Origin: an uncultured Verrucomicrobiota bacterium
Lineage (GTDB): Bacteria; Verrucomicrobiota; Kiritimatiellia; CAIVKH01
Reading direction: 5' to 3'
Length of the DNA: 64,000 nt
NCBI GenBank assembly: GCA_937872895.1
Contig: CALMUP010000028.1
Location: 62,001-126,000, forward strand
A model generated the notes under the pieces. That model was not told where the DNA came from. It was given only the letters and a program-made list of their open reading frames with translations, and did no database searches. Of this stretch, positions 17,699 through 18,918 are shown in pieces; position 1 is the first letter of the stretch, and each line of letters begins with the position of its first letter. Position numbers and translations under genes: made by a program.

Positions 17699-18046
17699 TT
17701 ATTTTGCGGCGGTTTTGTTATCCGTCAATACAATCTTGATGTGACTCATTTTTTTCTGGATAGGACCCGCACTTCCGCGAGCACGGGGCTGGAATCGCTT
17801 CATCATGTGGCCCTGGTCGACAATCGCCGACTTCACGACCAAATCATCTGCGGAAAGACCATTGTTGTTTTCCGCATTGGCAATCGCGGACTTGAGGGTC
17901 TTGCCGATATAGAGACCCGCCTTGCGTTCGCTGAACAGGGTGATCTTCAGGGCATCCGATGCGGAACGACCCTGGATTTCCCGCGCCATGTCGCGAATCT
18001 TCGTCGGTGAAACCCGTGCATCTTTAGTTATAGCCACGACGTCCAT
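17699..18046 (-). CDS. rplV: 50S ribosomal protein L22
   Basis: L22 lines the exit tunnel. The start ATG at 18046 (MDVVAITKDARVSPTKIRD) has GAGG eight bases upstream. The C-terminal tunnel loop includes DQGHMMKRFQPRARGSAGPI and SHIKIVLTD. 115 residues, normal length. Upstream in-frame codons overlap the unknown gene at 18054-18623 and are rejected. Confidence 0.96.
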   Translation of the reverse strand: MDVVAITKDARVSPTKIRDMAREIQGRSASDALKITLFSERKAGLYIGKTLKSAIANAENNNGLSADDLVVKSAIVDQGHMMKRFQPRARGSAGPIQKKMSHIKIVLTDNKTAAK

Positions 18047-18053
18047 GTTTACC

Positions 18054-18623
18054 TCATCCATCCTGCGTACTTCGTAAAACCAACCGATCCCCCGCTTCGG
18101 GAAACGGCATCCGTTCATTCCACTCAATCAAACCACCGGCAATACGTTCCCGGACATCCGTTATCCGTATCACCGCCAACACATCATTTCCTCGAACAAC
18201 CGAGAACCGCATTCCCTGCTTCATCCCGGAGCGGACGCCGCCACTTACCACGGCGACCATCATCTCTCTATTTACCTCGACGACCTGCAACCGCGCCGGG
18301 TCCGACATGACCTCCGGCGGTACGGTCATCGATTTCGGCGAACCGACCGGTGTCCGCTCTCCACCACCTGCGATCCCCAGGTCCAACTGGACCCTGGATT
18401 CCGCAAGCTTCAACTCCAGCAACATCACCTGGCGGGTCAGGTTGGTGACCTGGCTAGCCAGCCGTTGATTCTCCTGCTGCAACAGAATCAACATTTCAGC
18501 TGTTTCCCCATCGCTGGGTTTCGGGGTCAGCTTCTCTCCCCGCGCGTTCAACCAGTCGCCACTGGGGGCCACCACCATCATCAATGCCAGTCCGTAAACC
18601 AGCCTTGCCGCGGTGTGACCCAT
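18054..18623 (-). CDS. Unknown exported or membrane-anchored coiled-coil protein inside the S10 operon
   Basis: A 189-residue protein I cannot assign. Residues about 8-20 (LVYGLALMMVVA) form a signal peptide or N-terminal anchor. Residues about 42-80 make a leucine-rich coiled coil (LLQQENQRLASQVTNL, then LLELKLAES). Residues about 105-189 form a beta-rich domain (VVEVNREMMVAVVSGG, GMKQGMRFSVVRG, ITDVRERIAGGLIEW, EAGDRLVL). The anchor/coiled-coil/beta layout loosely resembles MreC, and the last domain resembles the end of the CsgG-like protein at 60731-61708. It sits between rpsS (10-base gap) and rplV (7-base gap), which are normally adjacent, so it is cotranscribed with ribosomal genes. Confidence 0.8.
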   Translation of the reverse strand: MGHTAARLVYGLALMMVVAPSGDWLNARGEKLTPKPSDGETAEMLILLQQENQRLASQVTNLTRQVMLLELKLAESRVQLDLGIAGGGERTPVGSPKSMTVPPEVMSDPARLQVVEVNREMMVAVVSGGVRSGMKQGMRFSVVRGNDVLAVIRITDVRERIAGGLIEWNERMPFPEAGDRLVLRSTQDG

Positions 18624-18633
18624 GATCCGTCAG

Positions 18634-18918
18634 TTACTTCAAGGTGACGGTTTTGTCCGTTGCCGCACCGTGACGGCGGAAGGTCCGGGTCGGGGAGAAT
18701 TCACCCAACCGGTGTCCGACCATGTTTTCCGTCACGAAAACCGTATTGAACATCTTGCCGTTGTGGACGGAGAATGTGTGGCCGACAAAATCAGGGATGA
18801 TCATGGAACGGCGCGACCATGTCTTGATCGGACGCTTTACGCCGCTAAGGTTGAGCTTCTCAACCTTCTTGATCAACTTTTCCTCTACGAACGGACCCTT
18901 CTTGAGTGAACGTGACAT
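18634..18918 (-). CDS. rpsS: 30S ribosomal protein S19
   Basis: S19 of the small-subunit head. It starts [20 protein letters not shown] and has the signature [14 protein letters not shown] and [17 protein letters not shown]. 94 residues. In most bacteria rplV follows; here an unknown gene is inserted. Confidence 0.97.

Follow-up and report, generated by a model that had tools for sequence, protein, structure and literature searches.

The S10 ribosomal protein operon of this Kiritimatiellia genome carries a gene between rpsS and rplV that encodes an exported protein, referred to below as X. Judged by the conservation of its sequence and position, X is an old, selected feature in most of the sampled classes of Verrucomicrobiota, including relatives of Akkermansia, and not an oddity of one genome. 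The reading favored here, at a probability of about one half, is that X is a scaffold-type protein of the periplasm, ancestral to Verrucomicrobiota broadly defined, and that its output follows that of the ribosomal proteins. One would not expect the core ribosomal operon of a whole phylum to include a conserved gene for an exported protein, and no description of an insertion between rpsS and rplV was found in the literature searched, subscription papers and supplements aside, including the papers on PVC signature proteins (PMC3444138, PMC2474590). The gene, its neighbors and the parts of its product lie as follows in the window, which is the whole stretch of 64,000 nt that was analyzed:

17699..18046, minus strand, rplV (ribosomal protein L22), the downstream neighbor and the one that X homologs keep
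18054..18623, minus strand, coding sequence of X, 189 aa, with an ATG start (conserved homologs; dN/dS)
18057..18305, minus strand, FlgT_C-like β domain of X, C-terminal, residues 107-189 (domain model, Foldseek, TsaP profile match)
18363..18512, minus strand, coiled-coil helix of X, residues 38-87 (AlphaFold2, pLDDT 93-97 over most of it; alignments)
18567..18611, minus strand, N-terminal hydrophobic segment of X, about residues 5-19, a signal peptide or membrane anchor (Kyte-Doolittle)
18634..18918, minus strand, rpsS (ribosomal protein S19), the upstream neighbor of X

The gene order is rplW, rplB, rpsS, X, rplV, rpsC, rplP and is otherwise normal for the operon. The stop codon of rpsS is separated from the ATG of X by 10 nt and the stop codon of X from the ATG of rplV (at 18046) by 7 nt; these coordinates verify the earlier note, which had described the gene as wedged between its two neighbors with gaps of that size. 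Four of the six homolog pairs that were compared give a dN/dS of 0.18-0.33, the remaining two being a very close pair with few changes (0.64) and a saturated one, and by this comparison X is under purifying selection. As many genomes place their homologs alike and these dN/dS values are low, the placement of X goes beyond chance; the refuting cases named in the earlier note, a gene found in only one genome with no conserved residues or a gene that is not translated, are excluded as far as can be judged from sequence.

The N-terminal segment of X reaches a 15-residue Kyte-Doolittle maximum of 1.92 over residues 5-19, and a comparable stretch (15-residue mean of at least 1.5 near the N-terminus) is present in 52 of 57 family members; three of the other five fall just under the cut and two may have mis-set starts. 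Signal peptides in the family were judged from hydropathy only, and the manner of anchoring appears to vary, as a clear lipobox is rare among the members. The AlphaFold2 model of full-length X (mean pLDDT 80.9) places a helix at residues 38-87 and a β domain at residues 113-183; taken with the hydropathy, it supports the N-terminal anchor, coiled coil and β-rich C-terminal part that had been read from the sequence beforehand. The coiled coil is long in Verrucomicrobiae and Lentisphaeria and absent in Opitutia, in which X has 111-127 aa and consists of the export segment and β domain only; because the coiled coil ranges from long to absent, the β domain is taken to be the conserved core of the protein. 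The family shares a motif of roughly V-x2-VN-x2-L-x2-VVL-x2-G-x3-G-x-R-x-GM ... VVDVR ... GD, and the C-termini of its members vary in sequence.

Searches of Pfam, NCBIfam and the PDB with X as a single protein give no significant match, and a Foldseek search with the full-length model returns mostly F1-ATPase barrels and MreC. A clearer result was obtained with the C-terminal 83 residues modeled alone from 56 aligned sequences (pLDDT 92.0, pTM 0.81); FlgT structures rank first (3w1e, TM 0.69) and third (8z5n, TM 0.76, rmsd 2.6 Å), with a probability of 1.0, TM scores taken over the query, E-values of 0.013-0.017 and many F1-ATPase barrels among the matches. The matched chain of 8z5n was taken as FlgT from its chain length and the title of the entry. 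Among viral structures, the second match is a phage protein with the FlgT C-terminal domain in its name. In sequence, the Pfam FlgT_C family (PF16538) gives weak matches in 8 of 30 X members (E 0.01 for the best member), and its gathering cut-off of 27 bits is reached neither by X, which has no match, nor by the members scanned, nor in the genome itself; the sequence profile of the C-terminal domain also weakly matches TsaP in 3jc8 (E=0.0017). The C-terminal domain of X is thus predicted to have the FlgT C-terminal β fold, a match of fold that is not proof of common descent.

Homologs of X were searched for in 58 related genomes, and all strong matches (E below about 1e-9) for which the surroundings were checked are flanked by rpsS and rplV or else immediately precede rplV. 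A survey of the region upstream of rplV in 44 Kiritimatiellia families (81 loci) places a homolog directly upstream of rplV at 31 loci; 17 families have X there in at least one sampled genome and 27 have none there. The conserved position that the earlier note had proposed as a check across Kiritimatiellota, and as support for a function, is borne out and extends well beyond that group. The gap from X to rplV is 6-13 nt in most Kiritimatiellia, and where X is missing and rpsS is adjacent, the gap between rpsS and rplV ranges from -1 to 257 bp and is mostly 10-30 bp. A profile search finds X nowhere in the sampled genomes of X-less families such as f10, f16 and f30, so in these families X seems to have been lost outright and not moved elsewhere. 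As several families have lost it, X is not universally essential, and it is dispensable in those Kiritimatiellia families that lack the gene.

Several junctions in the class have features of their own. A "Kiritimatiellae bacterium" (L183) and another genome of the class (G023) have in common a 178-bp gap with a short reading frame inside it, a likeness that supports the assignment of the earlier note to Kiritimatiellota. At one locus of family f12 (L073, genome G018), where rpsS is not a neighbor, X precedes rplV but is read in two overlapping frames (1442-1756 and 1693-2097) and may contain a frameshift. In family f18 (L083-L086), the S10 operon is likewise interrupted between rpsS and rplV, the latter being preceded by unrelated genes such as an integrase-like one. 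An apparent fusion of rpsS and rplV at L193 and L223 is an artifact of parsing. The X-less family f8 (L052-L056, L060, L061) has gaps of 198-223 bp and, in seven genomes, a conserved promoter-like element, TTGGCA followed after 17 bp by TAGTAT or a near variant, at about 141-150 bp upstream of rplV; a different block is conserved at about 41-49 bp upstream of rplV in families f30 and f16. These blocks suggest that transcription may start at the rpsS-rplV junction in the three lineages, most single-sequence shuffles being non-significant.

In the other groups of Verrucomicrobiota that were sampled (Verrucomicrobiae, Opitutia and Lentisphaeria), a homolog lies directly upstream of rplV in 38 of 43 loci, with a spacing that reaches 30-100 nt. 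Among named genomes, for which loci were gathered through the conserved rplV, X occupies this site in records of Roseibacillus, a Prosthecobacter debontii MAG, Akkermansiaceae, Opitutaceae, Chthoniobacterales and Lentisphaeria/Victivallales. One record titled as an Akkermansia muciniphila MAG (L212) has a short X of the Opitutia type (114 aa, as against roughly 240-250 aa in Akkermansiaceae), and the name of this MAG may be wrong. X is absent from 39 named loci of non-PVC phyla (Pseudomonadota, Bacillota, Actinomycetota, Spirochaetota and Bipolaricaulota), where the rpsS-rplV gap ranges from -1 to no more than 84 bp. In a tree built from rplB, rpsS and rplV, X is found in every main branch and its presence changes 13 times, compared to a mean of 40.7 for shuffled labels; this is a quick tree in which many branches are weak, and X matches guided part of the sampling, so loss counts are not firm. 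An early origin of X followed by losses is the simplest reading of these sequences, and the suggestion of a lineage-specific insertion gives way to that of a phylum-wide gene secondarily lost in some lineages. X offers a practical genomic marker for the Verrucomicrobiota group in which losses can be traced, with homologs in named Verrucomicrobiales and Akkermansiaceae.

In the favored reading, the hydrophobic N-terminal segment would export or anchor X, which would reside in the periplasm and may oligomerize there through the coiled coil of variable length while the FlgT_C-type β domain docks onto an envelope partner; by analogy to FlgT and TsaP, which are ring proteins of the periplasm, the role of X would be that of a structural or scaffold protein. 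Being encoded immediately upstream of rplV, X is probably co-transcribed with it, and its output would then track that of the ribosomal proteins, likely making X abundant, at a level scaling with growth. A bolder form of this proposal, in which the junction of rpsS and rplV starts a separate transcription unit led by X and ribosome synthesis sets envelope building across the phylum via an abundant periplasmic scaffold, seems unlikely. If X output does follow ribosome production, the protein would provide a direct test of the matching of envelope building to translation capacity. Co-occurrence points to no partner for X, as its presence follows neither secretin nor MreC; secretin is found in 146 of 146 genomes of the class and MreC in 141 of 146, with or without X, so that neither accounts for where X occurs and, both being nearly universal, their co-occurrence with X is uninformative.

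The exported function of X may instead be unrelated to growth, its place being kept merely by the slow change of S10 gene order after an insertion became fixed. This is possible, if less probable than the scaffold reading; S10 gene order is indeed conservative, several families have lost X cleanly and retain gaps of 10-30 bp, and X is dispensable where MreC and secretins persist. A passive passenger is, however, harder to reconcile with the operons that have broken between rpsS and X, in which X has stayed beside rplV. In the Lentisphaeria-type families f47, f53, f55, f65, f68 and f72, and likewise in f56, f59, f62 and f70, rpsS is absent from the upstream stretch that was fetched and X still lies immediately before rplV; X adjoins rplV without an adjacent rpsS in named Lentisphaeria, and one Kiritimatiellia genome has the same break. 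The exception is the Lentisphaeria-type genome G257, with no X at rplV and a match on another contig. It has also to be considered that X is a cis-acting leader, the translation or export of which regulates rplV in the manner of SecM, so that the protein product itself matters little. An exported product encoded immediately upstream of rplV and the short gap in most Kiritimatiellia would suit such a leader, but the most conserved part of X is a folded 83-residue domain and not a C-terminal arrest motif, the spacing to rplV widens in other classes, and paralogs with an X-type domain exist away from ribosomal genes; this explanation is improbable.

Least probable is that X is a miniature MreC paralog that acts in rod-shape control. 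The earlier note had likened its layout to MreC in miniature, and this holds as a rough likeness in the order of the parts (anchor, coiled coil, β) that does not extend to descent. Profile A2 matches MreC in the PDB at E=1.3e-4 and several NCBIfam MreC models match weakly; on the other hand, X has no match to the Pfam MreC model (PF04085), and the same genome has mreB, mreC and mreD together at a separate locus (G000:C8, L182), its MreC matching at E 1.8e-44. Alignment of the X profile to this MreC by hhalign gives a probability of 33% and spans the coiled coil and a short glycine-rich motif only, X has one β domain and not two, and the C-terminal domain alone matches TsaP and FlgT, not MreC. 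The identification of X as MreC was rejected on the separate mreBCD, the hhalign probability and the FlgT_C fit.

In comparison to known systems, the scaffold reading likens X to periplasmic ring proteins. FlgT, which contributes to the H ring of the Vibrio flagellum (PMC7693769), has the C-terminal β-domain fold in common with X; unlike FlgT, X has no FlgT N or M domains, carries ahead of its β domain either a coiled coil or just the export segment, and is encoded in a ribosomal operon. TsaP, the type IV pilus secretin-associated protein, is a periplasmic envelope protein for which a role in anchoring the pilus secretin to peptidoglycan has been proposed (PMC8811193), and it resembles X in the profile of the C-terminal domain; its N-terminal peptidoglycan-binding LysM domain was found neither in X nor among the Pfam families listed for 30 and 32 members, and the presence of X does not track that of secretin, which all 146 genomes of the class have. 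MreC shares its order of parts and the glycine-rich motif with X and differs in its second β domain and in being encoded in mreBCD, not the S10 operon. X also has paralogs in Verrucomicrobiota, proteins of 240-320 aa with a coiled coil and an X-type C-terminal domain that are not linked to ribosomal genes; these differ from X in belonging to another C-domain subfamily, with the motif V.N..WNFVV.D.G..DG. The genome studied here encodes one such paralog of 279 aa, with anchor, coiled coil and X-type C-terminal domain, away from its ribosomal genes (L263:3977-4816, minus strand; G000:C9), and the subfamily to which it belongs is widespread in the phylum, often as a tandem pair.
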